Positions 8,344 through 64,000 of a stretch of 64,000 nt of DNA are shown here, in pieces. The DNA is taken from assembly GCA_031291305.1 (NCBI GenBank), contig JARLJH010000027.1:62001-126000 (forward strand). Reading direction: 5' to 3'. The DNA comes from Rhodoferax sp. (GTDB lineage: Bacteria; Pseudomonadota; Gammaproteobacteria; Burkholderiales; Burkholderiaceae_C). The notes under the pieces are model-generated. The model had not been told where the DNA came from. It made no database searches and saw only the letters and a list, made by a program, of their open reading frames with translations. The stretch's first letter is position 1. Each line of letters opens with the position of its first letter. The position numbers and the translations under genes are program-made.

Positions 8344-8349
8344 TCAGGA

Positions 8350-8400: not shown

Positions 8401-8410
8401 GTAGTATTCC

Positions 8411-9383: not shown

Positions 9384-9413
9384 GTGGCGGGATCGACCTG
9401 GGAAAACGTTGAT

Positions 9414-11312: not shown

Positions 11313-11327
11313 TGCACTGACCTTTTC

Positions 11328-13004
11328 ATGACGCTCAAACTTTGTATTGCCCAACTCAACTTGGTGGTGGGCGATCTGGCCGGTAACTCGCAAAAAATCA
11401 TTCAGGCGGCTCAAGATGCTTACCAGAACGGCGCGCGTCTGGTGCTGACTCCCGAGTTGTCGATTTGTGGTTATGCCGCAGAAGACCTCTTTTTACGCTC
11501 GGCGTTCATTTCTGCCTGTGATGATGCCGTGAAAGCCGTGGCGGTGGCGTTGGCGCCGTTGAAAGACCTCGCCGTGGTCGTGGGCCACCCCACGGGCGGT
11601 GACAGTCGCACACGTTCATTGGCGGTTCAGCAGCGCTTTAACGCTGCCAGCGTGCTGCGCGAGGGGCAGGTCATCGCCACCTACACCAAGCATGAACTGC
11701 CCAACTATCAGGTGTTTGACGAACGGCGCTACTTCACACCGGGGCATGATGCGTGCGTGTTTGAAGCCGGGGAGGCCGGTGACACGGTCAAGATCGGCTT
11801 GCTGATTTGTGAAGACGCCTGGTTTGAAGGCCCGGCCCGGCAAGCGCGTGACGCAGGTGCTGAATTGCTGGTCACGATCAATGCCTCCCCCTTCCATGTC
11901 GGCAAGGGCAATGAGCGTGAACTCAAGATGCGTGAACGCGTGCGCGACTGCGGCTTGCCGTTGGTGTACGCGCACTTGGTGGGTGGGCAGGACGAGGTGG
12001 TGTTTGAAGGCCATTCGTTCATTCTGAATGCCGACGGCTCGCTGGCCGGGCGCGCTCCGAGTTTTATAGAAAATAGCCTTCTAGCCCAGGTAAACAAAGA
12101 GCAAGCAGCTATCAGTATTGAATCTACGATCACTGCGGATCGCACAGCAGATGAAGACTTGTGGGATGCGTTGGTGCTGGGTGTGCGCGACTACATTGGT
12201 AAGAACGGTTTTCCATCCGTGTTGCTGGGGCTATCGGGCGGCATCGATTCGGCGCTGGTGCTGGCGATTGCGGTGGATGCGCTGGGGAAAGACCGAGTAC
12301 GCGCAGTGATGATGCCGTCGCCCTATACGGCTGACATCAGTTGGATCGACGCGCGCGATATGGCTGCAAGGCTGGGTGTGCGGTATGACGAGCTGTCCAT
12401 CGTGCCCGAATTTGAGGCCTTCAAAGCGACTCTGGCCGGTGAGTTCAAGGGACTGGCCGAAGACACCACCGAAGAAAATATTCAGGCACGCATTCGTGGC
12501 ACGCTGCTCATGGCCTTGAGCAACAAGTTCGGCAGCATCGTGCTGACCACTGGCAACAAATCGGAGATGGCGACTGGCTATTGCACGCTGTATGGTGACA
12601 TGGCGGGTGGCTTTGCGGTGATCAAGGATCTCGCTAAAACCACGGTGTTCAGGATGGCGCGCTGGCGCAATGCGCACGATCCGTATGGCACCGGTGCTGC
12701 ACCGATTCCTGAGCGCATCATCACCCGGCCACCGAGTGCCGAGCTGCGCCCCGACCAGACCGACCAGGACAGCCTGCCGCCTTACGAGGTGCTGGACGCG
12801 ATTCTGCAGCGCTACATGGAAGACGATCAGAGCATCGAGGCCATCATCGCAGCGGGGTTTGATCGAGCGGATGTGGAGCGGGTCACGCGGCTCATCAAGA
12901 TCAATGAATACAAACGGCGACAGTCGCCTGTGGGTATTCGGGTCACGCACCGTAGCTTTGGCAAAGACTGGCGTTACCCCATCACCAATCGGTTCAGGGC
13001 GTGA
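11328..13004 (+). CDS. nadE: Glutamine-dependent NAD+ synthetase
   Basis: Final step of NAD biosynthesis: amidates nicotinic acid adenine dinucleotide with ammonia released from glutamine. The 558 residues combine an N-terminal nitrilase-type glutaminase (E43 in TPEL, K121 in TKHELPNY, C161 in LICEDAW) with a C-terminal synthetase carrying the ATP pyrophosphatase loop LSGGIDSA (about 302-309) and TGNKSEMATGY. Residues 245-265, in the linker between the domains, are encoded by a dispersed repeat copy (12066-12118). A PII gene follows 98 bp downstream, an arrangement known in other proteobacteria where PII controls NadE. No strong ribosome site precedes the ATG. Confidence 0.96.
   Translation: MTLKLCIAQLNLVVGDLAGNSQKIIQAAQDAYQNGARLVLTPELSICGYAAEDLFLRSAFISACDDAVKAVAVALAPLKDLAVVVGHPTGGDSRTRSLAVQQRFNAASVLREGQVIATYTKHELPNYQVFDERRYFTPGHDACVFEAGEAGDTVKIGLLICEDAWFEGPARQARDAGAELLVTINASPFHVGKGNERELKMRERVRDCGLPLVYAHLVGGQDEVVFEGHSFILNADGSLAGRAPSFIENSLLAQVNKEQAAISIESTITADRTADEDLWDALVLGVRDYIGKNGFPSVLLGLSGGIDSALVLAIAVDALGKDRVRAVMMPSPYTADISWIDARDMAARLGVRYDELSIVPEFEAFKATLAGEFKGLAEDTTEENIQARIRGTLLMALSNKFGSIVLTTGNKSEMATGYCTLYGDMAGGFAVIKDLAKTTVFRMARWRNAHDPYGTGAAPIPERIITRPPSAELRPDQTDQDSLPPYEVLDAILQRYMEDDQSIEAIIAAGFDRADVERVTRLIKINEYKRRQSPVGIRVTHRSFGKDWRYPITNRFRA
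12066..12118. repeat. Dispersed palindromic repeat copy inside nadE
   Basis: The segment reads AAATAGCCTTCTAGCCC, a spacer, then GCAAGCAGCTATCAG, matching the outer AATAGCTTCTAGCCC / AGCAGCTAT arms of the family. It is in frame in the interdomain linker. Confidence 0.6.
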
Positions 13005-49659: not shown

Positions 49660-50988
49660 TTATGCGTGAGCGCTCACCAAGGGCAAGCCGACTCGACGGG
49701 TGAACCACGCCACACTGAAGGTGAAGGCCAGCGTGGGCAGGGTGGCACCCCATTGCGGCGCAAACTGTGTCAGCAGGTGGTAGCAGGCGATACCCGCCAG
49801 CCACAGGGTTGCCGCTGTCCAGTCCACTTTGCGCGATGGTCGGGCGAAGTCTCCGGCACCCAGGCCCAGTCGGCCCAGAATAACGCCGTACAGCGGCACA
49901 AACACCGAGCTCAGCAGCAACAGGAACGGTTCCAGGCTGTGCATCGGTAACAGCATGGCCAAGGCCATGCACAGCGCGGCTAGCAGCAGTCCCCACTTGC
50001 GCACGCTCCAGCCCGGCAGAATGCTGTGGCCCGACACTGCGCTGGAGTAGACATCGCCATAGGCGTTGTCGATTTCATCGACCAGAATCAAGCTCAACGC
50101 CAGCAAGCCACCCTGGGCCAGTAGCAGCGCACCCACCAGATCGGAATCGGGTGGCACCACGCTGACCACCAGCACCCCGAGCGCATAACACCAGATGTTG
50201 GCCAGCGCATAGCCCAGCCAGGTGCCGGTCAAGGCACTGCGACCACTTTTGCCGTGGCGTGCGTAGTCAGCTACCAGCGGCAACCAGGACACCGGCATGG
50301 CGATCACCAGATCCATGGCCGACAACATGCCCATGCTGCCGTCGCCAGGGCGTGCCCAGAACGCGGCCAGACCTTTGGCGTGCATCAGGCTGCCAAATTG
50401 CCAGGTCAGCCACACCAGCGACGCCACGACCAGTGGCAGACCGACGCGGCTGATCAGCTTGCGCACCAGTTGGGTCATGGAACCGGCCAGCAACAGCAGC
50501 AAGACGGCACCCCACAACAAGGTAGTCGCCACCATGCCCCCCGTGCCGTCCAGACTCAGGCCAAAAGACTGTTTGCTGATCGCAGCAGTGCCATCGCGCA
50601 TGATGACGAGTTCAAACGTTGTCCAGCCAATCAGCTGCGCCATGTTCAACAGCACTGGCAAACGGGCAAAGGTACTGCCAAAGGTGGTGTGCATCAGCCC
50701 GGCACTGGACAGGCCGCTGTCGCAGCCCAGACGTGCCGTCCAGGCGAGTAAGCCTGCGCCGATCAGTGAGCCCAGCACAATGGCCAGCGCCGCCTCACGG
50801 CTGCCCACCGCAGGCACCAGATAGGCGCCCACCTGGATCACCAACAGGCCGACGCCCATGCTGAACCACAAGGAGGTGTGGTCGTGCCAGCTGAAAACGC
50901 GTTCGCTGTGGGAGACCGGTGAGAGGGCCGAATTCGGCGTACCCGCCGAGGCCGTGTTTGTGGAATCAGAACTGTGTGTCTTTGCCAT
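49660..50988 (-). CDS. cytX: Cytosine/purine-type permease, CytX HMP transporter
   Basis: Predicted importer of hydroxymethylpyrimidine for thiamine salvage. From ATG 50988 (TGGAGCAAAC ribosome site) it has 442 residues with about 12 hydrophobic helices of the NCS1 family. Typical segments are SLWFSMGVGLLVIQVGAYLVPAVGS, GSTFARLPVLLNMAQLIGWTTFEL and PVSWLPLVADYARHG. The TPP riboswitch upstream on the same strand and the thi genes opposite strongly support the thiamine role over cytosine uptake. A hydrophilic N-terminal tail of about 30 residues precedes the first helix. Confidence 0.9.
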   Translation of the reverse strand: MAKTHSSDSTNTASAGTPNSALSPVSHSERVFSWHDHTSLWFSMGVGLLVIQVGAYLVPAVGSREAALAIVLGSLIGAGLLAWTARLGCDSGLSSAGLMHTTFGSTFARLPVLLNMAQLIGWTTFELVIMRDGTAAISKQSFGLSLDGTGGMVATTLLWGAVLLLLLAGSMTQLVRKLISRVGLPLVVASLVWLTWQFGSLMHAKGLAAFWARPGDGSMGMLSAMDLVIAMPVSWLPLVADYARHGKSGRSALTGTWLGYALANIWCYALGVLVVSVVPPDSDLVGALLLAQGGLLALSLILVDEIDNAYGDVYSSAVSGHSILPGWSVRKWGLLLAALCMALAMLLPMHSLEPFLLLLSSVFVPLYGVILGRLGLGAGDFARPSRKVDWTAATLWLAGIACYHLLTQFAPQWGATLPTLAFTFSVAWFTRRVGLPLVSAHA

Positions 50989-51075
50989 CCGTTTGCTCCA
51001 TGCAAAAAGTTGGCAGGTCGGCTTCATCTTGAGGGGCTTATCGTTGCCAGAGAAGTCGGCAACACCCGTGGTCAG

Positions 51076-51172
51076 ACTGGCTTCCCTGCGCGAGGATTAC
51101 CTCAGTCAGGTTCAAAGGGACTTTCTCAGTCGGCCAGCAGTTGGTTCTGCTGGACAACACCCCTAGCGTGTG
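51076..51172 (-). promoter_or_regulatory. TPP riboswitch upstream of cytX
   Basis: Read on the minus strand: GCTAGGGGTGTTGTCC, a strong variable stem CCAGCAG / CTGCTGG, CTGAGAAAG, GAACCTGA and GCAGGGAAGCC. All THI-box cores are present. A second hairpin GTTGCC / GGCAAC (about 51040-51061) between the aptamer and cytX may be the expression platform. Confidence 0.9.
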
Positions 51173-51198
51173 CGTCATCAACTGGCGCGCAGGGGATT

Positions 51199-52257
51199 CT
51201 AAGCGTTCCCCATTGGCTTCACACCCAGACGTTGTTGCAGCAGGGCGCTGCTGGTGGTGTATTGCAGCACGGTGGATGCCTCAGGGTGAATCAGCGCGGC
51301 TGCGGCAAACGCGGCCAGGGTGGCTTCGTGAAAGCCGCTGACGATGAGTTTCTTCTTGCCAGGGTAGGTGATCACATCGCCCACGGCAAAAATGCCGGGA
51401 GCGCTGGTGGCGAAGGTGTCCACGCTGACGCAAAGTTGTTTGCGTTCCATCTCCAAACCCCATTGCGCGACGGGTCCGAGCTTGGGGCTGATGCCCAGGC
51501 ATATCAGCAAGGTGTCCATGGGCAGGTACAGAGTCTGATCGTCCGGGGTGGTGACTGCCACGCTGCTGAGTACGCCGTCAGTGGTGTGGACGGTGGTGAT
51601 CTGCCCGGCCACGAAGTTGATGCGACCCGCCTCGCGCAGGGCGGCCAGCTTGGTCAGTTGGTCTGAGCTGGCTTGCAGCACATCACGGCGGTGCAATAGC
51701 GTCACGCTTTTAGCCTGGTTCGGTCCAGTTGTGGCCAGTGTGAGGGCATTGGCAACGGCCTCGTCTTCGCCGCCCACAATCACCACGTGTTTGCCAGCAC
51801 AGGCCGCAGGTGGCGCAAACCGGTAAAAGGCCTGTTGCCCCAGAAACTCGCCGAAGCCGTCGACCCTGAGTTCTTTGGGCACAAACGCGCCAACACCGGC
51901 AGCAATGATCACAGTGTGTGTCAAAAATTGTTGTGCGGGCTGCTGGAAACGGGTGGTGGATACCAGCCAGCGTCCGTCGGGCTGACGTTCCAGCGCGTTG
52001 ACTTGTTGGCCCAAGTGCATACCCGGCTTGAACGGCGCGATTTGCTGCAATAGCTTATGCGTGAGTTCACGCCCGGTGCACACCGGCACACCGGGAATGT
52101 CATAGATGGGTTTGTCGGGATACAGCGCGATGCATTGACCGCCTGCCTCTTCAAGCACATCGACCACTTGGGCAGCAACGCCTTGCAGGCCCAACTCGAA
52201 CACGGCAAACAGCCCGACTGGACCGGCACCGATGACCAGCGCGTCGGTTTCAATCAC
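51199..52257 (-). CDS. Ferredoxin-NADP reductase, thioredoxin-reductase-like type
   Basis: FAD enzyme that passes electrons between NADPH and ferredoxin. The 352 residues (GTG start) contain two dinucleotide folds: ALVIGAGPVGLFAVFELGLQG for FAD and HVVIVGGEDEAVANAL for NADPH, with the FAD-contact AVGDVITYPG. There is no CxxC redox pair of thioredoxin reductase, as in YumC-type FNRs. It lies 27 bp downstream of the 7Fe ferredoxin gene, its likely partner. The paralogous thiamine transporter lies further downstream with its own riboswitch. Confidence 0.9.
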   Translation of the reverse strand: MIETDALVIGAGPVGLFAVFELGLQGVAAQVVDVLEEAGGQCIALYPDKPIYDIPGVPVCTGRELTHKLLQQIAPFKPGMHLGQQVNALERQPDGRWLVSTTRFQQPAQQFLTHTVIIAAGVGAFVPKELRVDGFGEFLGQQAFYRFAPPAACAGKHVVIVGGEDEAVANALTLATTGPNQAKSVTLLHRRDVLQASSDQLTKLAALREAGRINFVAGQITTVHTTDGVLSSVAVTTPDDQTLYLPMDTLLICLGISPKLGPVAQWGLEMERKQLCVSVDTFATSAPGIFAVGDVITYPGKKKLIVSGFHEATLAAFAAAALIHPEASTVLQYTTSSALLQQRLGVKPMGNA

Positions 52258-52284
52258 GGCAGTTTGTCTGTCAGATGGTGGTGA

Positions 52285-52614
52285 TCAGCGTTGCAGTTCG
52301 GATAGCTTGCCGCTGCGATCTTTCCACTCTTCGGCTTCCGGTAGTGGGGATTTGCGCTTGGAGATGGTTTTCCAGCTGGGCAGCAGCGCCAGTTCGGCAT
52401 TGATCTTGGTCATGTGGCGCTGGTTCTTGGGCACATCTTCTTCAGCGTAGATGGCGTTCACCGGGCATTCGGGGATGCAGACAGCGCAGTCGATGCACTC
52501 ATCGGGGTCGATGGTCAAAAAGTTGGGGCCTTCGCGGAAACAGTCCACGGGGCAAACGTCAACGCAATCGGTGTACTTGCATTTGATACAGGGTTCGGTG
52601 ACGACATGGGTCAT
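52285..52614 (-). CDS. fdxA: 7Fe ferredoxin FdxA
   Basis: Low-potential ferredoxin with one 3Fe-4S and one 4Fe-4S cluster. In 109 residues, the N-terminal [17 protein letters not shown] has the spacing of the Azotobacter FdI type (C9, then C17 and C21), and [15 protein letters not shown] is the second set. A C-terminal extension of about 45 residues is characteristic. It is co-directional with the FNR gene and probably forms an electron-transfer pair. The conditions of expression are unknown. Confidence 0.95.
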
Positions 52615-52723
52615 GGTGAGCGATCTACGGTTGGATTGAAAAAAGATGCAATTTTAAATGCTTGCTGGGAGCAACTGGGGAGCATAAAGCAACTGCGATC
52701 AGTTCTCATTGACGTGTGTCAAT

Positions 52724-53242
52724 TCACCGCTCAGCGTTGGTGCCGTTGGTTGCAAAGACCTTGCCCAGGGTTCTCATCTGCTGACCCATGTCCGCACCCA
52801 CCAGGTCCTGAATGCTCTGGGTATCACTCTGACTGGTAACCCCTGCGGCTGTCAGGCGGGCACGCATCTCGGTGACGTTCACACCTGCCACGTCGGCAAC
52901 CGTGGTCAGCGGCGCTCTGGCTAGCGCTTGCACGGGGGCGACAAAGGGTGGTTTGCCGCCGACTTCACCACCCAGCGGGATGAAGCTTAAGCCCAGAACT
53001 GCTGCGCTGGCCACCAGCACCCAGCGTCCGGTGGTGTTGGCCAGGTGCCGTTTGAACGCGTTCAAATTTAGCAAAACGTGCAGCACAACGCCGACCGCCA
53101 GGGCCCAACCCAGCCATTCGTGGGCGCTCTTGTTGAGTCCGGTATCGAGGTGAAAAAACATCAGGCTGCCAGTGATGGCCATGAGTGAAAAGATGCCAAT
53201 GACCAGCGGTGTGATCCAGGGGCGTTGGGTGTTGAGATTCAT
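52724..53242 (-). CDS. Small membrane protein, DUF4405-like (possible heme-binding)
   Basis: 172 residues from ATG 53242, after AAGGA. Three hydrophobic helices (about 9-27, 42-62, 74-90) are followed by a soluble domain. His in SAHEWLGW and in VVLHVLLN face each other in adjacent helices, a spacing seen in DUF4405 and cytochrome b561-like proteins, so heme coordination is possible. The second half contains a helix-hairpin-like stretch (VTEMRARLTAAGVTSQSD). It is upstream of fdxA on the same strand and may take part in electron transfer. Function is otherwise unknown. Confidence 0.75.
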   Translation of the reverse strand: MNLNTQRPWITPLVIGIFSLMAITGSLMFFHLDTGLNKSAHEWLGWALAVGVVLHVLLNLNAFKRHLANTTGRWVLVASAAVLGLSFIPLGGEVGGKPPFVAPVQALARAPLTTVADVAGVNVTEMRARLTAAGVTSQSDTQSIQDLVGADMGQQMRTLGKVFATNGTNAER

Positions 53243-53471
53243 GATTTTTCCTTGGTTATAGAGGTCAGGGTTAACCCTTGGTTTGTATTGTGAGGAGCGT
53301 CCTTTAAGTTCTATCAAGCTCATGTCAATTTGAGGTAAAGCCAGGCAAAAAGGATCATTTTCATCGACAGATTTTGGTGCGCATGTCTGGCCTGGACTGC
53401 TTTGGATAGTGCACAATTTGAACGGTCAAGACACCGATACCTTTTCTACCGCCAGTCAACAAGGACCCGCC

Positions 53472-54842
53472 ATGAGCAAGCAAACCAAGTTTTTACTCAA
53501 CGAAGATCAGATGCCCAAAGCTTGGTACAACTTGCAGGCCGACTTTCCCAAGCCGCTGCCGGTGGTGCTGCATCCGGGCACCATGCAGCCAGTCGGTCCT
53601 GATGATTTGGCACCGTTGTTTCCCATGGCGCTGATCATGCAGGAGGTCAGCACCGAGCGCGAGATCGATATCCCCGAGCCGGTGCGCGACTTGTATCGCC
53701 TGTGGCGTCCAGCACCGCTGTATCGCGCTCATGGTTTGGAGAAGGCGCTGGGTACTTGTGCCAAGATTTATTACAAGTACGAAGGTGTTAGCCCGGCGGG
53801 TAGCCACAAGCCCAATACTGCTGTGGCCCAGGCGTTCTTCAACAAAGAGGCCGGTGTCAAGCGTCTGACCACCGAAACCGGCGCCGGGCAGTGGGGCACC
53901 TCGCTGGCGTTTGCGGGCGCTCACTTTGGGCTGGAGGTGGAAGTCTTTCAGGTGCGCGTGTCCTATGACCAGAAACCCTATCGTCGCGCCGTGATGGAAA
54001 CCTATGGCGCGCGATGTGTCGCGTCACCGTCCATGGAAACCGAATATGGCCGCTCGGTGCTGGCCAAACGACCAGATCATCCGGGTAGTCTGGGCATTGC
54101 GATTTCCGAAGCGGTGGAATTGGCTGTTCAGCGCGATGACACCAAATATGCCCTTGGATCGGTTCTCAACCATGTGCTGCTGCACCAGAGCATCATTGGC
54201 CTGGAAGCCATGAAACAGATGGAGATGGCCGACACCTGGCCCGATGTGGTGGTGGGGTGCACGGGCGGCGGTTCCAACTTTGCCGGTATTGCCTTCCCAT
54301 TCATGGGACACGGCTTGCGCGGCGGGCAGAAGTCGCGCTTTGTGGCGGTGGAACCGGCCGCCTGTCCGTCACTCACGCGTGGAAAATATGCCTATGACTT
54401 TGGCGACACCGCCAAAATGACGCCGCTGACCAAAATGCACACGCTGGGCAGCCAGTTCACGCCGCCAGGCTTTCATGCTGGTGGCTTGCGCTACCACGGC
54501 ATGGCCCCCATGGTGTCGCACGCCATGCACTTGGGTTTGATGGAAGCCGTGGCCTACAACCAAGTCGAATGCTTTGCCGCTGGCGTGATGTTTGCGCGTG
54601 CTGAAGGCATCGTGCCCGCGCCGGAGGCCAACCATGCGGTCAAAGGAGCAATTGAAGAGGCGCTGCGCTGCAAGCGTGAAGGCAAGGCCGAGACGATTTT
54701 GTTCAATCTCTCAGGCCATGGCCACTTTGACATGGCTTCGTACCAAAAGTACTTTGCCAGTGAGTTGACCGACGAAAAATACGACGAAAGCGAGTTGGCC
54801 ATGGCCCTGGCGGGCCTGCCCAGCGTGCCTGACTCGGTTTAA
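53472..54842 (+). CDS. TrpB2-type tryptophan synthase beta-like enzyme
   Basis: PLP enzyme of the TrpB2 class. From ATG 53472 (AAGGACC ribosome site) it has 456 residues, longer than TrpB1. Motifs are the PLP Lys in SPAGSHKPNTA, the Glu-containing TTETGAGQWGTSLA and the phosphate-binding GCTGGGSNF. No trpA is adjacent. TrpB2 proteins act poorly with TrpA; proposed roles are indole salvage or serine/threonine deamination. It converges with serB (stops overlap by 4 bp), which makes serine, one of its substrates. Confidence 0.9.
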   Translation: MSKQTKFLLNEDQMPKAWYNLQADFPKPLPVVLHPGTMQPVGPDDLAPLFPMALIMQEVSTEREIDIPEPVRDLYRLWRPAPLYRAHGLEKALGTCAKIYYKYEGVSPAGSHKPNTAVAQAFFNKEAGVKRLTTETGAGQWGTSLAFAGAHFGLEVEVFQVRVSYDQKPYRRAVMETYGARCVASPSMETEYGRSVLAKRPDHPGSLGIAISEAVELAVQRDDTKYALGSVLNHVLLHQSIIGLEAMKQMEMADTWPDVVVGCTGGGSNFAGIAFPFMGHGLRGGQKSRFVAVEPAACPSLTRGKYAYDFGDTAKMTPLTKMHTLGSQFTPPGFHAGGLRYHGMAPMVSHAMHLGLMEAVAYNQVECFAAGVMFARAEGIVPAPEANHAVKGAIEEALRCKREGKAETILFNLSGHGHFDMASYQKYFASELTDEKYDESELAMALAGLPSVPDSV

Positions 54843-55552
54843 GCCTTCACCAGGCTCAGCAGTCGATCTAGGCCACCGGACTCAATCGACACGTTGGCCA
54901 ATTTGCGCACAGCGGGTTTGGCGTGGTAGGCCACCGACAGACCAACGACACCCATCATCGGCAGGTCATTGGCGCCATCACCCACCGCAATAGCCTGACA
55001 CGGCTCGATGCCCAGCAGGGCACAGGTTTGCAGCAGCATGGTTCGCTTTTCGTTACCGTCACAGATATCGCCCCAGGGTTGATTGACCATGCGACCGGTC
55101 AGCGTGTCGTCGGCGACTTCGAGGACGTTGGCACGGGTGTAGTCAATGCCCAGGCGTTCACGCAGGCGCTCGGTAAAGAAGGTGAAGCCTCCTGAGACCA
55201 GTAGCACTTTCAGTCCGGCCTGCTTACAGGCGGCTACCAGTTCGGCGGCACCGGGGTTGAGTTGCAGGCGCTCGGTGTAAATCTGATCGATTTGTGCCAT
55301 CGTGACACCTTTAAGCAAGGCCACACGTTGGCGCAGACTTTCTTTGTAGTCGGCAATGTCGCCGCGCATGGCGGCCTCGGTGATGGCTGCCACCTCTGCT
55401 TTGCGGCCTACCGCGTCGGCGATCTCGTCCACACACTCGATGTTGATCAGGGTGGAGTCCATGTCGAAGGCGATAAGCTTGAAATCGGTCAGGCGCAGCG
55501 GTGGGGTGATGCCTGCAATGCGCAGGCCGGGGGTAAATTCGTCAGGGGGCAT
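54839..55552 (-). CDS. serB: Phosphoserine phosphatase
   Basis: Last step of serine synthesis from 3-phosphoserine. The 237 residues have the HAD catalytic motif FDMDSTLINIECVDEIA (both Asp), the SGGFTFF motif II, Lys in the third motif region and GDGANDLPM. The upstream ACT domain of E. coli SerB is absent, giving the short form seen in many betaproteobacteria. Its stop overlaps the convergent TrpB2 stop by four bases. Confidence 0.93.
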   Translation of the reverse strand: MPPDEFTPGLRIAGITPPLRLTDFKLIAFDMDSTLINIECVDEIADAVGRKAEVAAITEAAMRGDIADYKESLRQRVALLKGVTMAQIDQIYTERLQLNPGAAELVAACKQAGLKVLLVSGGFTFFTERLRERLGIDYTRANVLEVADDTLTGRMVNQPWGDICDGNEKRTMLLQTCALLGIEPCQAIAVGDGANDLPMMGVVGLSVAYHAKPAVRKLANVSIESGGLDRLLSLVKA

Positions 55553-55556
55553 GGGT

Positions 55557-55622
55557 AATAGCTATGTATTAGAGAGCCACTAGTCCTTTATTTATAAGGG
55601 CTAGAGAGCGATTTCTTATATG
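55557..55622. repeat. Dispersed palindromic repeat copy upstream of serB
   Basis: The segment reads AATAGCTATG, then CCACTAGTCCTTTAT / ATAAGGGCTAGAG and AGCGATTTCTTATAT. The inverted core CTAGTCCTTTAT / ATAAGGGCTAG is clear. It fills the gap between the serB start and the CbiM-like gene. Confidence 0.7.
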
Positions 55623-55635
55623 GATTTGTCAGTGT

Positions 55636-56253
55636 TCAAGGTTTCGTCAGATACAGCCGGTCAGACCAGGTAGCCAGCCATTCGGGTTTGAAGGCGACCA
55701 TGATGGCGGTGAATAATCCGGTCAGAAAGGCATCGCCCCAGGCGGCCAGCCAGTGCGCGACCAAGCTCAGGCTGTTGTCGATGCCAGGCATGCTGTGACC
55801 GCTGAACTGCGCCAGCACACCGGCGACAAACCCGCAGACGGCAGTTCCCAGGAACGCCCGCCCAAGAATATAGACAAACAGATGAGGCCCAATCCAGCGG
55901 CGCACGGCCAGGCCCATGCCCAGTGCCAGCGTGGCAGGCACCACGCCCAGCCATACCGTCAGGTCCAAGGCGGTTTCCCACGGCATGGGCGAGATCAAAG
56001 CGGCAATCACACCCACCACGCACAGCACCGGCACAGCCAGCGGCCAGCCCAGCATCAGGACCAGCAGACACGCGCCGGAGCCCTGCAACTGCAGCGGCAT
56101 CTTGTGCAGGCTTGGCATCGCCCACAGCCACGGAATCAGGGTCAGCGCGGCCAGAATGGGCGTCAGTCGGGTGGCACCGGCCATCAAACGCCAGGGGCGC
56201 ATCAACACTGCGATGGTTAAGGCCAACGTCAGCATGGTGAAGTTGGTGATCAT
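55636..56253 (-). CDS. CbiM-like membrane permease (COG3235 type)
   Basis: 205 residues with about six hydrophobic helices (roughly 5-22, 30-48, 62-84, 95-112, 130-150, 165-185). It resembles the predicted CbiM-related permease family associated with energy-coupling-factor transport. In a CbiM-type protein one expects an N-terminal metal-binding His, not seen here (MITNF), so a metal role is unproven. It sits downstream of the DUF1854 gene in the same direction with a 40-bp gap. It may belong to the cyanophycin-associated set or simply neighbour it. Confidence 0.65.
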   Translation of the reverse strand: MITNFTMLTLALTIAVLMRPWRLMAGATRLTPILAALTLIPWLWAMPSLHKMPLQLQGSGACLLVLMLGWPLAVPVLCVVGVIAALISPMPWETALDLTVWLGVVPATLALGMGLAVRRWIGPHLFVYILGRAFLGTAVCGFVAGVLAQFSGHSMPGIDNSLSLVAHWLAAWGDAFLTGLFTAIMVAFKPEWLATWSDRLYLTKP

Positions 56254-56293
56254 GACGAGCGGTGGGGCAGGGGGCTTTGAGGATGGTCCAGGG

Positions 56294-56782
56294 TTACAGA
56301 AACCGGTCCAGAATTTTGCGGCTTTCCCGACTCAGGGTGGCCGCATCGCGGATCAGGAACTGAATGCCGTGCGAGTCCGTGACCAGCAAAATGGTCGCAC
56401 CAACGCGGCGGATGTCTTCATCCCCGCGCAGCACAAAGCTGGTGTTGCCCCGGTCGGTCTTGACGCTCCAGGTGCAGGGCGTGGAAAAGCTGGTGACACT
56501 GTCGATGCTCAAGATGGTCGGCATGAACTCCCGGCTCTGCAGCTCTTCACGAATCAGGCTTTGCGTCGGTTCCGGCAAAGCGGCCAGCTGGTCTACCCAG
56601 GCGACCTCATGGCCATCGGTGTGTACCAGGGAAATGCCGACATCGGGCGACTGGATCGGAAAGGCGCGGATCGGTACCACGCCCTCGACCACCTCGCCCT
56701 GCTGCGTGGTAAGAACGAGGCGGCCAAACGGGTTACGGGTCAGTTGAAAGGTGGCAGCAGTCATGGTAGTGCGGGTGTTCAT
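56294..56782 (-). CDS. DUF1854 family protein, cyanophycin-associated
   Basis: 162 residues, soluble, with mixed beta strands and polar loops. The conserved-looking segments are PFGRLVLTTQQGEVVEGVVPIRAFPI, VAWVDQLAALPE and LQSREFMPTI. Start ATG overlaps the end of the ABC transporter gene by four bases, so the two are translationally coupled. NCBI names this family as cyanophycin metabolism-associated, from memory. Its biochemical role is not known to me; the tight coupling suggests that it works with the transporter. Confidence 0.85.
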   Translation of the reverse strand: MNTRTTMTAATFQLTRNPFGRLVLTTQQGEVVEGVVPIRAFPIQSPDVGISLVHTDGHEVAWVDQLAALPEPTQSLIREELQSREFMPTILSIDSVTSFSTPCTWSVKTDRGNTSFVLRGDEDIRRVGATILLVTDSHGIQFLIRDAATLSRESRKILDRFL

Positions 56783-59061
56783 TCGTCGTCCCTGCGGCGG
56801 TCTTTGGCATCGTCCATGTCCACATCCATATTGCGTGCCTGCGCCTGATACAGGTTGTAGTAAGCGCCTTCGGCGGCCATCAGCGCATCGTGCGTGCCGA
56901 CTTCGACGATCTGGCCACGGTCCATCACCACCAACCGGTTGGCTCGGTGCAGGGTGGAGAGCCGGTGGGCAATGGCAATGGTGGTGCGGCCCTTGACCAG
57001 ATTTTCCAGCGCGTTCTGGATTTCCTTTTCGGTCTCGGAATCGACCGACGAGGTGGCTTCGTCCAGGATCAGGATGCGCGGGTCAATCAGCAGCGCCCGC
57101 GCGATCGAGATGCGCTGGCGCTCCCCGCCGGACAAACCCTGTCCACGTTCGCCGACCATTGAGTCATAGCCTTGCGCCAGACGCAGGATGAATTCGTGCG
57201 CGTGGGCAGCGCGTGCGGCGGCAATGATCTCGGCCTGCGTGGCGTGCGGCTTGCCGTAGGCAATGTTCTCGGCGATGGTGCCAAAAAACAGAAACGGCTC
57301 TTGCAACACCAGCCCGATGTGGCGGCGGTAATCGGCTACCGGAAAGGCGCGCACATCCACGCCGTCGACCTTGATCGAGCCTTCGGATACATCGTAGAAG
57401 CGGCAGATCAGGTTGACCAGCGTGCTCTTGCCCGAGCCGCTGTGACCGACCAGGCCAATCATTTCGCCGGGGTTGATCGTCAGGCTGATGCCCTTGTTGA
57501 CCTCGCGGTTGCCATAACGGAAGCTCACATCGGTTAGCTCGATGCGACCCTCGATGCGCTCCAGTTTGACCGGTTGCGTGGGTTCGGGCACGCTGGAGAC
57601 ATGATCCAGAATGTCAAAAATGCGTTTGGCGGCCGAGGCCGATTTTTCAGTCACCGAGACGATGCGGCTCATCGAGTCCAGCCGACCATAGAAACGGCTG
57701 ATGTAGGAAATGAAGGCCATCAGCACACCAACGGTGATCTCAGACTTGGACACCAGCCAGATGCCAAACCCCCAGACCACCAGCAGACCGAGTTCGGTCA
57801 TCAGCGAAATGCTGGGCGCAAACACCGACCAGATTTTGTTGATGCGGTCGTTCACCGCCAGGTTTTGTTTGTTGGCTTCGCGAAAGCGCGCTGATTCGCG
57901 GTCTTCCTGGGCAAACGCCTTGACCACCCGCACACCGGGGATGGTGTCGGCGAGCACACTGGTCACGGCTGACCAGACCCGGTCAATCTTCTCGAAACCG
58001 GTTTGCAGCCGAAAGCGCACCGAACGGATCATCCACACAATGAATGGCAGCGGCACCAGCGTAACCAATGCCAGCCAGGGGTTGATCGAGATCAGGATCA
58101 CCGCCGTCATGATCAGCATCAGGATGTCAGAGGCAAAGTCCAGCAGGTGCAGCGACAAAAACACACAAATGCGGTCACTCTCGCTGCCAATGCGCGACAT
58201 CAGGTCGCCAGTGCGCTTGCCGCCAAAGTACTCCAGCGACATGCGCAACAGGTGCTCGTAGGTGGTAGTGCGCAAATCCGCCCCAATGCGCTCGGACACC
58301 AGCGCCAGAATGTAGGTCTTGGCCCAGGACAGCCCCCAGGCCAGCACTGCAGCCCCAAACAGCCCGCCTAGATAAGTGGCCACCAGCATTGGTTCGATGT
58401 GTTTGCCGTTCTGGAACGGGATCAGCACCTCGTCCATCAAGGGCATGGCCAAGTACGGCGGAACCAAGCTGGCGGCGGTTCCCAGCAGTGTCAACCCGAG
58501 ACCTGCAAACAGTTGTTTGCTATAAGGTTTCGCAAAGCGCCAGAGCCTGAACAGCGTCCAGGTCGAGGGTGGGGTATGGATGACCTTGGTGCAGATCGGG
58601 CATTCGTCCTGGTCGGGCTCCAGCGGTGCTTTGCAGCTTGGGCAGCGTCGGCCCTCGGGCAACACCGGCGCTTCACCTGTGACGTGGCTGGTTTGATGGA
58701 TGTTGAATTGATCCACCAAACGAATCGCGTGCAGGTTGTGCGCCAGCGTAAAGCTCCAATGGGCCAAACGTCCTGTGTCGTCCAGTAGGTCCAAGTGACC
58801 CACTCCTGCATGATCATGCAGATGCATGGCCAGGCCAGGTTGGTAATGCCAGGACTGCCAGGTGGCATCTGGCGCACGACTCAACACGCGGTGCTCGGTG
58901 ACCAGAACCACACCTCTAACGAAGTGAAGTTGGCTGTCAAGATCAAACACCAGAGCGGCCAGTATGCTCTCGTTTTCATAGATTTGTGCAGCCACATCCG
59001 GGTGCCATTGGGCAGGAATGTCTTGTAGCAACGGATCGGAAGCAGTAGCGTCTTGAGTCAT
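56779..59061 (-). CDS. ABC transporter with N-terminal zinc ribbon, cyanophycin-associated
   Basis: 760 residues in a single half-transporter chain. Residues 1-165 form an extra cytoplasmic domain ending in a zinc ribbon (C140, C143, C154, C157). The six-helix transmembrane domain spans about 180-470. The ATPase domain has Walker A GHSGSGKST (539-547), the signature LSGGERQ (643-649) and Walker B ILILDEA (663-669). The type resembles lipid and peptide exporters. It stands divergent from cphA-prime across about 197 bp. Substrate is unknown: peptides, cyanophycin fragments or a signal are possibilities. Confidence 0.92.
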   Translation of the reverse strand: MTQDATASDPLLQDIPAQWHPDVAAQIYENESILAALVFDLDSQLHFVRGVVLVTEHRVLSRAPDATWQSWHYQPGLAMHLHDHAGVGHLDLLDDTGRLAHWSFTLAHNLHAIRLVDQFNIHQTSHVTGEAPVLPEGRRCPSCKAPLEPDQDECPICTKVIHTPPSTWTLFRLWRFAKPYSKQLFAGLGLTLLGTAASLVPPYLAMPLMDEVLIPFQNGKHIEPMLVATYLGGLFGAAVLAWGLSWAKTYILALVSERIGADLRTTTYEHLLRMSLEYFGGKRTGDLMSRIGSESDRICVFLSLHLLDFASDILMLIMTAVILISINPWLALVTLVPLPFIVWMIRSVRFRLQTGFEKIDRVWSAVTSVLADTIPGVRVVKAFAQEDRESARFREANKQNLAVNDRINKIWSVFAPSISLMTELGLLVVWGFGIWLVSKSEITVGVLMAFISYISRFYGRLDSMSRIVSVTEKSASAAKRIFDILDHVSSVPEPTQPVKLERIEGRIELTDVSFRYGNREVNKGISLTINPGEMIGLVGHSGSGKSTLVNLICRFYDVSEGSIKVDGVDVRAFPVADYRRHIGLVLQEPFLFFGTIAENIAYGKPHATQAEIIAAARAAHAHEFILRLAQGYDSMVGERGQGLSGGERQRISIARALLIDPRILILDEATSSVDSETEKEIQNALENLVKGRTTIAIAHRLSTLHRANRLVVMDRGQIVEVGTHDALMAAEGAYYNLYQAQARNMDVDMDDAKDRRRDDE

Positions 59062-59258
59062 ACAGGCCAGAATTTTCGGCAGGTGGGTGGCCGCAAGCCG
59101 AATTCGAGTCGGTGGCGAACGGCAAGGGGCTTGAGGAGTTTACGGGTGAACCCAGGGCTAACAAATATTTATGTCATTTCCATGAGGAGAATGGCTTCTT
59201 GGGAGTAAATCAACTGAAAATTCATGGCTGGTGCTTAATGGACAACCTTTAAAAATTC
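59062..59258. promoter_or_regulatory. Divergent promoter region of the cyanophycin locus
   Basis: It separates the ABC transporter (minus strand) and the synthetase genes (plus strand). AT-rich patches near AACAAATATTTATG and the final 40 bases suit promoters. I see no palindrome strong enough to call. A ribosome site before the cphA-prime start is not obvious. Confidence 0.45.
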
Positions 59259-61445
59259 ATGACGATGAAGACCATTCAATTGCTGCGTGTGACCCATTTG
59301 CGCGGCCCCAATATCTGGACCTACCGTCCGGTCATCGAGGCGTGGGTTGATATTGGTGACTTGGAAGACTATCCCTCCAACACCCTGCCCGGATTTTATG
59401 AGCGTTTGACCGCCATGCTGCCTGGTTTGGCGGTGCATCGCTGCGGTATTGGTGAACCCGGTGGTTTCCTGGAGCGACTGCGCGACGGAACCTGGGCGGC
59501 TCACATCCTGGAGCATGTGGTGCTAGAGCTGCAAAATTTGGCCGGCATGCGCACCGGTTTTGGAAAAACCCGACAAACCCCGGTGCGCGGCATCTACAAG
59601 ATGACCTTTCGCACCCGGCAAGAAGAGGTGGGCCGAGCGGCGCTGGCCGTGGGCTGCGATGTGGTTCATGCGGCCATTCACAACACAGCATTTGATCTGG
59701 CGGCGGCAGTATCCCGGCTGCGTGATCTGGTTGACAAGCATTGCATGGGGCCCAGTACGGCGCACATTGTGGAGGCTGCCACTGAGCGCGGTATTCCCCA
59801 TATTCGCCTGACCGATGGCAACCTGATACAACTTGGGCACGGCTCCAGCCAACGCCGGATATGGACCGCCGAGACGGACCAGACCTCGGCCATCGCCGAG
59901 GAAATTGCCAGCGATAAAGACCTTACCAAGTCATTGCTGCAGTCGTGTGGTGTGCGGGTGCCGCAAGGTCAGGTCGTCAATACTGCCCAGGAGGCGTGGG
60001 AGGCCGCGCAGGACATTGGTCTGCCGGTGGCAGTCAAACCTTATGACGGTAACCACGGCCGTGGCGTGTCCCTTGACCTGGCAAGACAACAGGACGTCGA
60101 AGCGGCATTCCTGCTGGCTCAACGCAAGGGTGAAGGCAAGGTCATCGTCGAGCAGTTCATTTCAGGCAATGAGCACCGCTTTCTGGTGGTGGGGAATAAG
60201 CTTGTCGCTGCCGCACGGGGCGAGACGGCATGGGTCACCGGAGACGGCCACGCCAACATCATTGAGCTGGTGAATTGTCAGCTCAATACCGATCCGCGTC
60301 GTGGCGCGACAGAAGACGCGCCTTTGAACACCCTGGCGCCCCACGAAGGCGCTGAAATCGTCCTGGAGTTGGAGCGTCAAGGACTCACCGCCTATTCGGT
60401 TCCAGCTGCTGGCGACAAAGTCCTGATTCAGCGCAACGGCAATGTGGCTTTTGATGTGACTGATGATGTCCACCCCAGCGTAGCAGCGGTGGCAGCTCTG
60501 GCCGCGCGAGTTGTCGGGCTGGATATTGCCGGCGTTGACATGGTGTTGGAAGACGCCTCACGCCCGTTGGCTGATCAGCGTGGTGCGGTCATCGAAGTCA
60601 ACGCCAGCCCAGGCCTGTTGGCCCATTTGAAACCAGCCAGCGGCCAACCCCGTCCTATCGGCAAAGCCATCATTGACCATTTGCTTGGAGCGGATCAAGG
60701 TCAAAGCGGGGTGGGTCGCATACCTGTGGTGGGTGTCACGGGCCAAGCCAACACCACGCACCTTGCCCGCCTGATTGCCTGGTTATTGCACAACAAAGGT
60801 CAAAAAGTTGGCCTGGCTTGCCGGGATGGTTTTTACCTGGGCGCGCGCCGGGTTTCTGCGGCGGACAGCACGGGTTGGGATGCTGGGCAGAACCTGCTGA
60901 TGAATCGCGCGCTGAATGTGGCTGTGTTCGAACACAGTACCCGCCAGATCCTGGCTGAGGGCCTGGCTTACGACAAATGCAGTGTTGGTGTGGTCACAGA
61001 TTTTGGTGGCCTGGAATCACTGGCAGAGTTCTATATAGATGACCTGGACAAGCTCTTCAACGTGGTGCGCACCCAGGTTGATGTGATCTTGCCGCACGGC
61101 ACAGCGGTCCTCAATGCCGACGATCCTCAGGTGGTTCAACTGGCACCGCTGTGCGACGGTCAGGTTATTTTTTATGGCCACAACCCTGACTCGCAAGTCA
61201 TGGTGGAGCATCGTACCAACGGTGATCGGGTGGTTTTCCTTGAAGGCGACCTGATTGTCCTGGCCCAGGGCGCGGATGCGGTCGCCCGAATTGCGCTGGA
61301 TTCACTGACGCCCGATGCCAGGGACTTGCAAGACAGTGCGCTGGCCGCCGTTGCCGCTGCATGGGCGCTTGGCATGACCCCGGATTTGATCGGCGCTGGA
61401 CTGCGAACTTTCCGACTGATCCCTAACAAAAAACTTGAATCATGA
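59259..61445 (+). CDS. Cyanophycin synthetase paralogue with degenerate Mur ligase domain
   Basis: A CphA-like protein of 728 residues, shorter than the neighbour by at least 125. It keeps an N-terminal domain (residues 1-160) and an ATP-grasp region (about 215-475) with VKPYDGNHGRGV (259-270) and the HANIIELVN-type segments. The ATP-grasp loop that in CphA reads GH...LTKI is ATEDAPLNTL here. In the Mur-like domain the P-loop is TGQANTTH (494-501) where CphA has TGTNGKTT, so the essential Lys is gone. The C-terminal Mur lobe is missing. This predicts ATP-grasp activity only, similar to cyanobacterial CphA2. Its stop overlaps the cphA start (ATGA). Confidence 0.9.
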   Translation: MTMKTIQLLRVTHLRGPNIWTYRPVIEAWVDIGDLEDYPSNTLPGFYERLTAMLPGLAVHRCGIGEPGGFLERLRDGTWAAHILEHVVLELQNLAGMRTGFGKTRQTPVRGIYKMTFRTRQEEVGRAALAVGCDVVHAAIHNTAFDLAAAVSRLRDLVDKHCMGPSTAHIVEAATERGIPHIRLTDGNLIQLGHGSSQRRIWTAETDQTSAIAEEIASDKDLTKSLLQSCGVRVPQGQVVNTAQEAWEAAQDIGLPVAVKPYDGNHGRGVSLDLARQQDVEAAFLLAQRKGEGKVIVEQFISGNEHRFLVVGNKLVAAARGETAWVTGDGHANIIELVNCQLNTDPRRGATEDAPLNTLAPHEGAEIVLELERQGLTAYSVPAAGDKVLIQRNGNVAFDVTDDVHPSVAAVAALAARVVGLDIAGVDMVLEDASRPLADQRGAVIEVNASPGLLAHLKPASGQPRPIGKAIIDHLLGADQGQSGVGRIPVVGVTGQANTTHLARLIAWLLHNKGQKVGLACRDGFYLGARRVSAADSTGWDAGQNLLMNRALNVAVFEHSTRQILAEGLAYDKCSVGVVTDFGGLESLAEFYIDDLDKLFNVVRTQVDVILPHGTAVLNADDPQVVQLAPLCDGQVIFYGHNPDSQVMVEHRTNGDRVVFLEGDLIVLAQGADAVARIALDSLTPDARDLQDSALAAVAAAWALGMTPDLIGAGLRTFRLIPNKKLES

Positions 61446-64000
61446 AGTTGTCCCGTATCAGAGCCCTTCGGGGTCCCAATCTTTGGACGCAGCGTACTGC
61501 CATTGAAGTGGTGGTGACCTGTACCGCCGCCGAGTGTGATGTCACCGTCGATCCCGGTTTTGATGCCCGTTTGCATACCTGTTTCCCGGCCATTGGCATG
61601 GTTCAGTCCGGCGGACAAGACACACCGGTCAGCTTGGCACATGTGCTGGGTGTGGCGGCTCTGGGGCTGCAGGCGCAGGCAGGGTGTCCGGTGACCTTCC
61701 GGCGTACCACACCAACCTTGGAAGTTGGCATTTTTCAGGTGATTGTGGAATACACCCAGGAGGCGGTAGGTCGGTTGGCGCTGGAGCTGGCGCACACGCT
61801 GTGCCAGGCCGCCGTGGAGGGCACTTCCTTTGACCTGCAACAGGCGCTGGCCCAGTTGCGCGATCTTGACGAAGACGTGCGCCTGGGTCCCAGCACCGGC
61901 ACCATCGTTGACGCCGCTGTAGCGCGGCAGATTCCGTATCGCCGCATGACCGAAGGCAGCATGGTCATGTTTGGCTGGGGCAGTCGACAACGCCGCATTC
62001 AGGCGGCCGAGATTGACCGAACCAGCGCCATTTCCGAGGCTATTGCGCAAGACAAGCAGCTCACCAAAAAGCTGCTGGCCGCGGCAGGCGTGCCGGTGCC
62101 CCAGGGGCGCGAAGTGGCCAGCGCCGAAGACGCGTGGGCTGCAGCCCTTGAAATTGGTATGCCGGTGGTGGTCAAACCCAAGGATGGCAATCAAGGCAAA
62201 GGAGTCACCGTCAACATTTCTTCGCGTGATCAACTGCTAGGTGCTTACCGTACGGCATCGGAATTCAGCCGCAAGATTCTGGTTGAAAAGTTTTTGCCGG
62301 GACACGACTTTCGCCTGCTGGTGGTCGGTGACAAATTGGTGGCGGCTGCTCGGCGCGATGCGCCCCATGTGGTGGGTGACGGCGTTCGCAGCGTTCGTGT
62401 GCTGGTAGACATGGTAAACAGCGATCCACGGCGGGGTTCCGGCCACGCCACATCGCTGACCAAAATCCGTTTTGACGACATCGCCCTGGCTTGCCTGGCG
62501 GGGCAGGGCTTGCAGGCAGATTCGGTACCGGCCAATGGCCAACGTGTGGTCTTGCGGCGCAATGCCAACCTGTCCACCGGCGGCAGCGCGACCGATGTCA
62601 CGGACGATGTCCACCCGGAAGTGGCCGCGCGTGCAGTGGCAGCCGCTCAAATGATTGGTCTGGATATTTGCGGTGTCGACGTTATGACCGACAGTATTCA
62701 CCACACGCTCGAAGAAAAAGGCGGCGGCGTGGTCGAGGTCAATGCCGCGCCCGGCTTGCGCATGCATGTTTCGCCGTCGTTTGGCAAGGGGCGGCCCGTG
62801 GGTGAAGCGGTGATTAACCACATGTTTGGCGCAAGTGGCAACGGGCGTATTCCGGTGGTAGCGGTGACCGGCACCAACGGCAAGACCACCACCGTGCGCC
62901 TGATCTCCCACCTGCTGACGCAAAGTGGCCTGCGTGTGGGTATGACCAGTACCGACGGGGTTTACGTGGCTGGTCAGCGCGTTGACACGGGTGACTGTAG
63001 TGGCCCCAAGAGCGCACGCAACGTTCTGGCCCACCCGGATGTGGATGCCGCCGTGCTGGAGACCGCGCGCGGTGGCATGTTGCGTGAGGGGCTGGCGTTT
63101 GACCGTTGTGATGTGGCCGTGGTCACTAACGTTGGAAGCGGCGACCATCTGGGCCTGAACTACATCGTCACGGTAGAAGACCTGGCGGTGCTCAAGCGGG
63201 TGATCGTGCAAAACATCGCTGCGCATGGCGTGGCGGTGCTCAACGCCGCTGATCCTATCGTCGCGGGCATGGCACCGCACTGTTCCGGCTCGGTCACCTT
63301 TTTTGCTGCGGACCGCCATCATCCGGTCATGGCGACCCATTTGGCGCAAGGAAACCGGGGTATCTATGTCGAGAACGCTTGCCTGGTGGCTGCGCAGGGC
63401 GACGTACAGCACAAACTGGCTTTGTCAGGCGTGCCGATCACCCATCAGGGCAGCATTGGGTTTCAGGTGGAAAACGTCATGGCGGCAGTCGCCGCTGCCT
63501 GGGGTTTGGGCTTGGATTGGGAGGTGATTCGGGCTGGTTTGGCCAGCTTCGTCAACGACAGTGACAACGCTCTGGGCCGCTTTAACTTGTTTGACTACCG
63601 TGGCGCCACTGTGATTGCTGATTACGGCCATAACCCCGATGCCATGTTGGCACTAGTGCAGGCGGTGCAAGCCTTGCCCGCCAAGCGCCGCTCGGTGGTG
63701 ATCAGCGGCGCGGGTGACCGACGCGACGACGACATTCGCCAGCAAACCCAGATCCTGGGCCAGGCTTTTGATGACGTGGTGCTGTACCAGGACCAGTGTC
63801 AGCGTGGCCGGGCAGACGGTGAAGTGATTGCCTTGCTGCGCGAAGGATTGTCGAGCGCCAAACGCACCCAGACCATTCACGAAATCACCGGCGAATTTCT
63901 GGCGATTGACACCGCCATGGACACATTGGCCGAGGGCGATCTGTGCCTGATTCTGGTGGATCAGGTGGAAGAGGCGTTGGCGTACATCCGTGCCAGGATT
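61442..64000 (+). CDS. cphA: Cyanophycin synthetase, 3' end outside the window
   Basis: Polymerises Asp and Arg into cyanophycin using ATP. 853 codons are present and the frame is still open, so the C-terminus is cut, probably by only a few residues given typical lengths of about 850-900. The N-terminal domain is residues 1-160, the ATP-grasp domain 210-460 (VKPKDGNQGKGV; RGSGHATSLTKI), and the Mur ligase-like domain starts near 470 with the P-loop TGTNGKTT (476-483). The catalytic ETARGGMLREGL and the C-terminal lobe with ADYGHNPDAM follow. Second gene of the operon with the degenerate paralogue. Confidence 0.95.
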   Translation, partial: MKLSRIRALRGPNLWTQRTAIEVVVTCTAAECDVTVDPGFDARLHTCFPAIGMVQSGGQDTPVSLAHVLGVAALGLQAQAGCPVTFRRTTPTLEVGIFQVIVEYTQEAVGRLALELAHTLCQAAVEGTSFDLQQALAQLRDLDEDVRLGPSTGTIVDAAVARQIPYRRMTEGSMVMFGWGSRQRRIQAAEIDRTSAISEAIAQDKQLTKKLLAAAGVPVPQGREVASAEDAWAAALEIGMPVVVKPKDGNQGKGVTVNISSRDQLLGAYRTASEFSRKILVEKFLPGHDFRLLVVGDKLVAAARRDAPHVVGDGVRSVRVLVDMVNSDPRRGSGHATSLTKIRFDDIALACLAGQGLQADSVPANGQRVVLRRNANLSTGGSATDVTDDVHPEVAARAVAAAQMIGLDICGVDVMTDSIHHTLEEKGGGVVEVNAAPGLRMHVSPSFGKGRPVGEAVINHMFGASGNGRIPVVAVTGTNGKTTTVRLISHLLTQSGLRVGMTSTDGVYVAGQRVDTGDCSGPKSARNVLAHPDVDAAVLETARGGMLREGLAFDRCDVAVVTNVGSGDHLGLNYIVTVEDLAVLKRVIVQNIAAHGVAVLNAADPIVAGMAPHCSGSVTFFAADRHHPVMATHLAQGNRGIYVENACLVAAQGDVQHKLALSGVPITHQGSIGFQVENVMAAVAAAWGLGLDWEVIRAGLASFVNDSDNALGRFNLFDYRGATVIADYGHNPDAMLALVQAVQALPAKRRSVVISGAGDRRDDDIRQQTQILGQAFDDVVLYQDQCQRGRADGEVIALLREGLSSAKRTQTIHEITGEFLAIDTAMDTLAEGDLCLILVDQVEEALAYIRARI

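Follow-up and report, generated by a model that had tools for sequence, protein, structure and literature searches.

Cyanophycin metabolism in betaproteobacteria has presented a puzzle: two cphA copies are found, cyanophycinase is reported to be lacking (PMC5178258, PMC5670224), and no polymer was obtained in R. eutropha H16 (PMC8560796). A betaproteobacterial pair of this type has been labelled CphA1/CphA2 (PMC5178258), and cphA genes of this kind are common in wastewater, including a 'Group 1' cluster from activated sludge with two cphA genes and an unclassified ATP-binding cassette (ABC) transporter and without cphB (PMC10687191). In NCBIfam, the families NF052233 (CphA_assoc_ABC) and NF052234 (CphA_assoc_prot) are both named 'cyanophycin metabolism-associated', so the association of an ABC protein and a DUF1854 protein with cphA has already been recorded by curators. 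The present analysis concerns a four-gene locus of this composition at the end of a window of 64,000 nucleotides from Rhodoferax sp. (the whole stretch of DNA analysed; contig JARLJH010000027.1, positions 62,001 to 126,000, assembly GCA_031291305.1). An initial annotation of this DNA had regarded the locus as its best candidate for an undescribed system, a description that the NCBIfam names and the activated-sludge cluster precede. Within the literature searched, the new elements are a reciprocal split of active sites between the two synthetases, an exact tie of the transporter to this split pair, a predicted PH-like domain in the transporter, and a contrast with loci that contain cyanophycinase.

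The two synthetase genes are encoded on the forward strand. The first, cphA' (59259..61445), encodes 728 amino acids and is overlapped at its stop codon by the start of the second, cphA (61442..64000), in an ATGA junction; cphA extends beyond the window end and forms an 856-residue open reading frame (ORF) on the wider contig. Both products match NF010623 (CphA' with 990 bits against a cut-off of 877, CphA with 1224 bits), and TIGR02068 gives 970 bits for CphA and 693 bits for CphA', the latter under the cut-off of 850. A total of 19 residues over the N, G and M sites were scored, with numbers and roles following SuCphA1 and TeCphA1 (PMC9262961, PMC9427784). The CphA' pattern, CHEH KKHRGNDEL TTEES-, includes an N domain with the primer-cutting motif Cx19HxxEH (C62 to H86; 59442..59516, forward strand), which aligns with C59, H79, E82 and H83 of SuCphA1. 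The same protein departs from CphA1 by R323G, R458L, K499T, D585E, H586S and the loss of the lid, and by Pfam it has no Mur-ligase C-terminal lobe; its N site is thus predicted to be active, its aspartate site lost and its M domain degenerate. The CphA pattern, SHGV KKQRRNDER KTEDHH, has SHGV in place of the N-domain motif and keeps all scored G and M residues save H267, which is Gln, so that a dead N site is combined with predicted intact sites for aspartate recognition and arginine ligation. The missing N motif alone does not exclude CphA1, because approximately 17% of CphA1 enzymes are without the full motif (PMC9262961). The initial annotation had recognized two synthetase genes divergent from the transporter; their presence and orientation hold, and they are not equivalent but appear to encode complementary subunits.

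This pattern was followed in 200 genomes of Burkholderiales, searched with profiles for PF08909, the ABC model and cphA (called at E <= 1e-100), in a wider sample of 219 genomes of the phylum (Pseudomonadota), and in named loci, for which the best 80 of at least 568 relatives were taken. The counts for CphA' (67), CphA (65) and the ABC ribbon (67) exclude the window's own proteins, which served as queries, and CphA fragments of 600 residues or less were left out. In CphA', the N-site residues C59, H79, E82 and H83 are present in all 67 genomes, as are K220, K261, R309, D431 and E450, and H267 is found in 66. R323 is replaced by Gly in 66 and by Ser in one, R458 is Leu in 64 and Arg in none, and Asn is retained at position 394 in 59. 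The lid of the M domain has been lost by 59 of the 67, and the scored M residues together with the lid are kept in just five. Conversely, the full N site occurs in none of the 65 CphA proteins, all of which have R323, N394, R458 and every scored M residue. The named loci show the same reciprocal arrangement (69 CphA', 65 CphA), and cphA starts within 150 nucleotides of the cphA' end in 60 of 62 pairs. A CphA family tree built with FastTree placed the 67 CphA' in one clade, the 65 CphA together with the protein of genome G185 in a second, and nine single CphAs in a third, with support of 1.0 each. Judged by their site residues, CphA' and CphA are therefore reciprocally degenerate and complementary. 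The five full-length CphA' with scored M residues (L202-L206, from G348, G309, G368, G355 and G244) already carry both R323G and R458L, which suggests that the aspartate site was lost before the arginine-ligase site.

The transporter genes are inherited strictly with these synthetases. Among the Burkholderiales genomes, PF08909 and the ABC model each matched 68, and cphA was detected in 77; the DUF1854 and ABC sets are identical and lie wholly within the cphA set (Fisher test 5.7e-44, a value that ignores the relatedness of the genomes). The initial annotation had placed DUF1854 and the transporter with cphA and had suggested asking whether the pair is equally common elsewhere; all 68 pair genomes have cphA, and the pair occurs in 0 of 123 genomes without it. 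In all 68, the DUF1854 gene lies downstream of the ABC gene in the same orientation; in G264 the ABC match is partial and the gap larger. The ABC gene is divergent from a cphA gene and less than 1 kb away in 59 of the 68, so this arrangement is not due to chance. In the other nine, the genes are divergent at 1.3 kb (one), divergent at 8 and 13 kb (two), nearby on the same strand (two), on separate contigs (two) or far apart (two), the last being G356 (0.77 Mb) and G392 (2.3 Mb on one contig, possibly less if circular). None of DUF1854, ABC and cphA is present in G102, a congener of G356, G392 and G276.

In the 219 phylum genomes, DUF1854 was detected in nine and cphA in 11, with the nine contained in the 11. 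G185 is the only one of these nine from outside the class; because its assembly has 8% contamination and the gene is found in no other genome of its class (1 of 48, G185 itself), its module may represent transfer or contamination. The 80 named loci contain ABC in 79, cphA' in 74 and cphA in 72, and in the six that show no cphA, the sequence stops under 2 kb upstream of DUF1854, short of the place of cphA.

A further comparison concerned the type of cphA that accompanies the transporter. Nine Burkholderiales genomes have cphA without DUF1854. Six of them (G256, G298, G324, G338, G375, G408) encode three-site CphAs, and together with two from the phylum sample (G083, G086) these make eight proteins, each with 19 of 19 scored residues. 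The remaining three are G333, which is of the pair type, its contig ending inside the ABC gene, and was nevertheless tallied as a cphA-only genome; G346, which is degenerate, being without N-domain residues and others; and G232, which is weakly related (29-31% identity) and below the 250-bit limit. All eight genomes with a single three-site CphA are without the transporter pair, so the transporter is tied to one cphA subtype. The idea of cphA in general as the partner was accordingly rejected, and the tie proposed by the initial annotation is upheld for the split pair. As a separate observation, a second Mur-ligase-like ORF (579 and 586 amino acids) adjoins the three-site cphA at L182:10803-12542 and L268:5565-7325, and that of L182 matches PF08245 and PF02875.

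The distribution of cyanophycinase follows the same division. TIGR02069 matched 16 of the 200 Burkholderiales genomes at E 1e-10, 13 of them above the cut-off; among the 68 pair genomes, four were above it (G269, G237, G281, G313) and two below (G323, G392), and the window genome had no match to this model. Matches of more than 230 bits were confined to seven genomes, namely the six with three-site CphAs and G269. When loci were scanned with three cyanophycinase-like queries, a match was found in 7/8 three-site CphA stretches and in 0/155 pair-locus stretches; the exception among the former, G298, has its match on another contig, beside a cphA fragment. The window locus likewise has no cyanophycinase gene near cphA, a gene that would mark a storage locus. 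These counts agree with the lack of cyanophycinase reported in betaproteobacteria, bar the exceptions named. G269 also has a second cphA locus with a cyanophycinase-like match (L278, approximately 4619-11844), which by eye includes an ORF resembling isoaspartyl aminopeptidase; its four-gene module lies elsewhere in the genome.

On the reverse strand and divergent from the synthetases, the window encodes the 760-residue ABC half-transporter (56779..59061) and the 162-residue DUF1854 protein (56294..56782), whose start overlaps the ABC stop codon in ATGA, as the initial annotation had described. The ABC protein is a full member of NF052233 (1383.3 bits, curated cut-off 880) and contains a transmembrane region (PF00664, 143 bits; residues 185-459, 57685..58509) and an ATPase domain (PF00005, 119 bits; residues 523-671, 57049..57495). 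Walker A, Q-loop, signature, Walker B, catalytic Glu and H-loop are intact in 66-68 of 68 ABC sequences, one of which ends there. By these domains and motifs the protein is assigned to the exporter (type IV) fold, and the solved structures nearest to it in sequence are exporters of the ABCB, MsbA, TM287-288 and Sav1866 type. Two acidic residues lie one turn apart in the third transmembrane helix (TM3), D308 in 67/68 sequences and D312 in 68/68; D312 aligns with an Asp of Sav1866 and is therefore not special, whereas D308 does not.

The N-terminal extension of the ABC protein is predicted to be PH-like over residues ~17-128 (58678..59013). An AlphaFold2 model of residues 1-174 from 31 sequences (mean predicted local distance difference test score, pLDDT, 86.5) shows a helix, seven strands and a long C-terminal helix, that is, the seven-strand barrel with a capping C-terminal helix by which PH domains are recognized. 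Foldseek gave probabilities of up to 1.00 to PH-type entries (e.g., 5yqr, 3dcx), and the PDB matches listed were overwhelmingly to what appear to be PH, PTB, GRAM or related domains. The best Foldseek E value was 0.0011, so the assignment stays at the level of the fold. Pfam bPH_3 matched two of 31 members (best E 0.038), and G86 of this domain is invariant in 68/68 sequences. The initial annotation had emphasized a CxxC...CxxC ribbon at the end of the N-terminal domain. The four cysteines are present (C140, C143, C154, C157; residues ~138-159, 58585..58650), and the putative ribbon, for which the Pfam zinc-ribbon matches are all below cut-off, is just the tail that follows the PH-like part. 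The cysteines occur in 31/31 aligned sequences and in all 74 uncut ABC sequences of the named loci; in the wider set they are found in 56 of 67 genomes and missing in 11, so the ribbon appears evolutionarily dispensable and was rejected as the defining element.

The DUF1854 protein is soluble, with a mixed beta/alpha structure, and serves as the putative partner of the transporter. It matches PF08909 (163.7 bits, cut-off 26.8) and is a full member of NF052234 (228.2 bits, curated cut-off 150); among the matches listed, its closest relatives are from Rhodoferax (84-86% identity). The predicted model has a pLDDT of 90.3 and a predicted template modelling score of 0.59, and a fold search against PDB gave no match at E < 0.001, with TM-scores near 0.2. 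A profile comparison of DUF1854 with the ABC N-terminus yielded a probability of 1% over 22 columns. No match to DUF1854 was found in plasmids, and a PHROGs search returned nothing informative. The initial annotation knew of no function for DUF1854, and a full-text search for DUF1854 or 'cyanophycin metabolism-associated' found no paper, most subscription journals lying outside this search; among the matches listed for cyanophycin with transporter, export or subunit, no function was assigned to these genes.

With regard to the surroundings of the four genes, the CbiM-like permease that had been placed next in line was rejected as part of the module. This 205-residue ORF (55636-56253) matches no Pfam or NCBIfam family at E 0.001 and is present in 2/80 named loci, both from close Rhodoferax relatives. 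The order of a CytX-like transporter, a ferredoxin-type protein, SerB and this membrane ORF (window 49660-56253) is kept only in these two nearest loci. A scan for promoters and terminators was near the shuffle background (2 vs 1.2 and 6 vs 3.8). A count of neighbour families around the loci is rough because the simple ORF caller favours long antisense ORFs in GC-rich loci; by this count, families in at least eight loci beyond the four genes seemed to be antisense-ORF artefacts or rare, not each of them being identified. The ABC-DUF1854 genes of one genus (g5) are preceded by genes for a sigma-70-region-4 protein and a DUF3619-like protein, one of each having been tested (L187:11518-12093 on the reverse strand, L190:6249-7462, L189:5881-6725), and may be regulated there. 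In G326 (L185:5324-17779), approximately 12 kb inserted between ABC and cphA' hold two TonB-dependent-receptor-like genes and transport genes, the first identified by testing and the others by eye.

A reading that we tentatively favour, with considerable doubt, is that the four genes work as a single machine, in which a two-subunit cyanophycin-type synthetase is paired with a probably exporting membrane transporter complex of its own. Because the site residues have known roles, CphA would elongate the poly-aspartate backbone and add arginine (or lysine), and would be unable to cut chains or to prime itself; CphA' would be unable to take free aspartate and mostly unable to add arginine, and would supply its metallopeptidase-like chain-cutting site and perhaps hold the chain end. 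The ABC protein would be a homodimeric half-transporter of exporter type whose PH-like domain lies in the cytosol; together with DUF1854, made from the next start codon, it could accept short pieces of beta-Asp-Arg type at the membrane and move them out of the cytoplasm. A complex between CphA' and CphA, their product as the cargo and the outward direction of transport are all inferred. This reading is favoured by the reciprocal loss of site residues, by the strict co-inheritance of the genes, which stay together even when far apart (G356, G392) and are jointly absent from G102, by the exporter-type fold with intact ATPase motifs, by the lack of cyanophycinase in 155/155 pair stretches as opposed to its presence in most three-site loci, and by the reported lack of cyanophycin from the R. 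eutropha H16 genes (PMC8560796). In a more specific form, which seems rather unlikely, storage plays no part in betaproteobacteria; short trimmed Asp-Arg/Lys oligomers made by the CphA'/CphA pair would be exported by the PH-domain ABC protein and DUF1854, the product perhaps being capped or lipid-linked. Here CphA' may link the end of the chain to a carboxylate-free acceptor (an amine or lipid), an idea suggested by its G domain, which keeps residues that bind ATP and the chain end and has lost those that hold free aspartate.

Several points weigh against the one-machine reading. The rough neighbour count shows no recurrent outer-membrane or periplasmic partner next to the genes. H267 is Gln in 63/65 CphA, and since H267A reduces the activity of two studied enzymes (PMC9262961, PMC9427784), CphA may be weak or may need CphA'. 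A note of caution also comes from the CphA of G185, which lies beside ABC and DUF1854 genes, is cut by the contig end, and combines an intact N site with Q267. The second locus of G269 has two CphAs without the N site and with Q267, beside the cyanophycinase-like gene, and the tree puts both with the single CphAs; these proteins and that of G185 indicate that Q267 evolved on more than one occasion and does not necessarily abolish activity. A simply dead Asp-adding domain in CphA was thus rejected, the G269 proteins suggesting that Gln may be tolerated, and an early division into N and G against M was dropped, given this possible tolerance and the loss of R323 and R458 in CphA'. Furthermore, the DUF1854 domain is not confined to the cyanophycin setting, because PF08909 also matches in the control genome of Sulfolobus acidocaldarius, where the cphA and ABC models have no match. 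Some exporter-fold ABC proteins function in import. The genes of R. eutropha H16 are presumably of this pair type. When overexpressed at home or in E. coli, they reportedly gave no cyanophycin (PMC8560796, citing Adames 2013); this second-hand result could mean that the enzymes are inactive, and it is equally compatible with export or with a different product.

Other explanations divide the same evidence differently. Ordinary intracellular cyanophycin could be stored on a membrane platform, with ABC and DUF1854 tethering or regulating the synthetase through the PH-like domain, or sensing amino acids, and carrying no cargo. The domain is probably cytosolic by its position and the module is strictly tied to the synthetase, but the retention of all ATPase motifs would be needless for a mere tether, and the store would be without the usual release enzyme near the pair, yet CphA' has a cutting site; on balance this explanation is unlikely. 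We consider it quite improbable that the transporter has another envelope task, such as handling a lipid or metabolite needed during polymer synthesis, with DUF1854 as a general ABC accessory protein: the absence of the transporter from every sampled Burkholderiales genome without cphA argues against such a role, for which the Sulfolobus DUF1854 gene and the closeness in sequence to ABCB/MsbA-type exporters of lipids and drugs would speak. A transporter that supplies the synthetase by taking up beta-Asp-Arg dipeptides or basic amino acids is more doubtful again. The nearest solved structures by sequence are exporters, no periplasmic binding protein recurs nearby in the rough count, and of the two acidic TM3 residues, D308 would suit a cationic cargo, as would the importing members of this fold suit the direction, while D312 is common to Sav1866. 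Finally, the genes might be mere neighbours travelling with cphA and doing no joint work, as their adjacency in most genomes would allow; their persistence together at a distance in G356 and G392, and their joint absence from a genome of the same genus, make this highly improbable.

A split synthetase with a coupled transporter offers a concrete and testable answer to the betaproteobacterial puzzle. If it is true, both cphA genes need to be co-expressed in the presence of the transporter, and the extracellular space or the membrane would be the place to look for the product. Such a system would further suggest that these bacteria move a nitrogen-rich polymer or its fragments through the membrane and do not use it for storage alone. 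It would be relevant to nitrogen recovery from wastewater (PMC10687191) and to polymer production, and DUF1854 would gain a function. The gene context of DUF1854 in Sulfolobus acidocaldarius could show the general role of the domain.

Compared with known systems, the window proteins are full members of NF052233 and NF052234, whose name lines, on which the comparison rests, give the association only and mention no cargo, PH-like domain or link to a split pair. The 'Group 1' cluster resembles the window in its cphA-cphA-ABC composition without cphB and differs in that the available text contains no mention of 'DUF', draws no distinction between the cphA copies, and interprets the cluster as a possible composite transposon (PMC10687191). 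Type I secretion and peptide-exporting ABC proteins (TIGR01846, TIGR03796) likewise combine an exporter core with an extra N-terminal cytosolic domain; the ABC protein scores 406 and 347 bits against these models, both below their cut-offs, and its N-terminal domain is predicted to be PH-like with a ribbon, whereas that of peptide exporters is C39-like. CphA' resembles CphA2, the cyanobacterial beta-Asp-Arg polymerase, in that the M-domain P-loop and lid are mostly gone (PMC9427784), but CphA2 is without Cx19HxxEH (PMC9262961), which CphA' keeps in 67/67; this speaks against the CphA1/CphA2 label, and CphA' was rejected as a CphA2. Both subunits share the N-G-M order of classical CphA1 (SuCphA1, TeCphA1; PMC9262961, PMC9427784) and jointly cover its three sites. 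Unlike in CphA1, these sites appear to be divided, the N site being found just in CphA' and the sites for aspartate recognition and arginine ligation in CphA.

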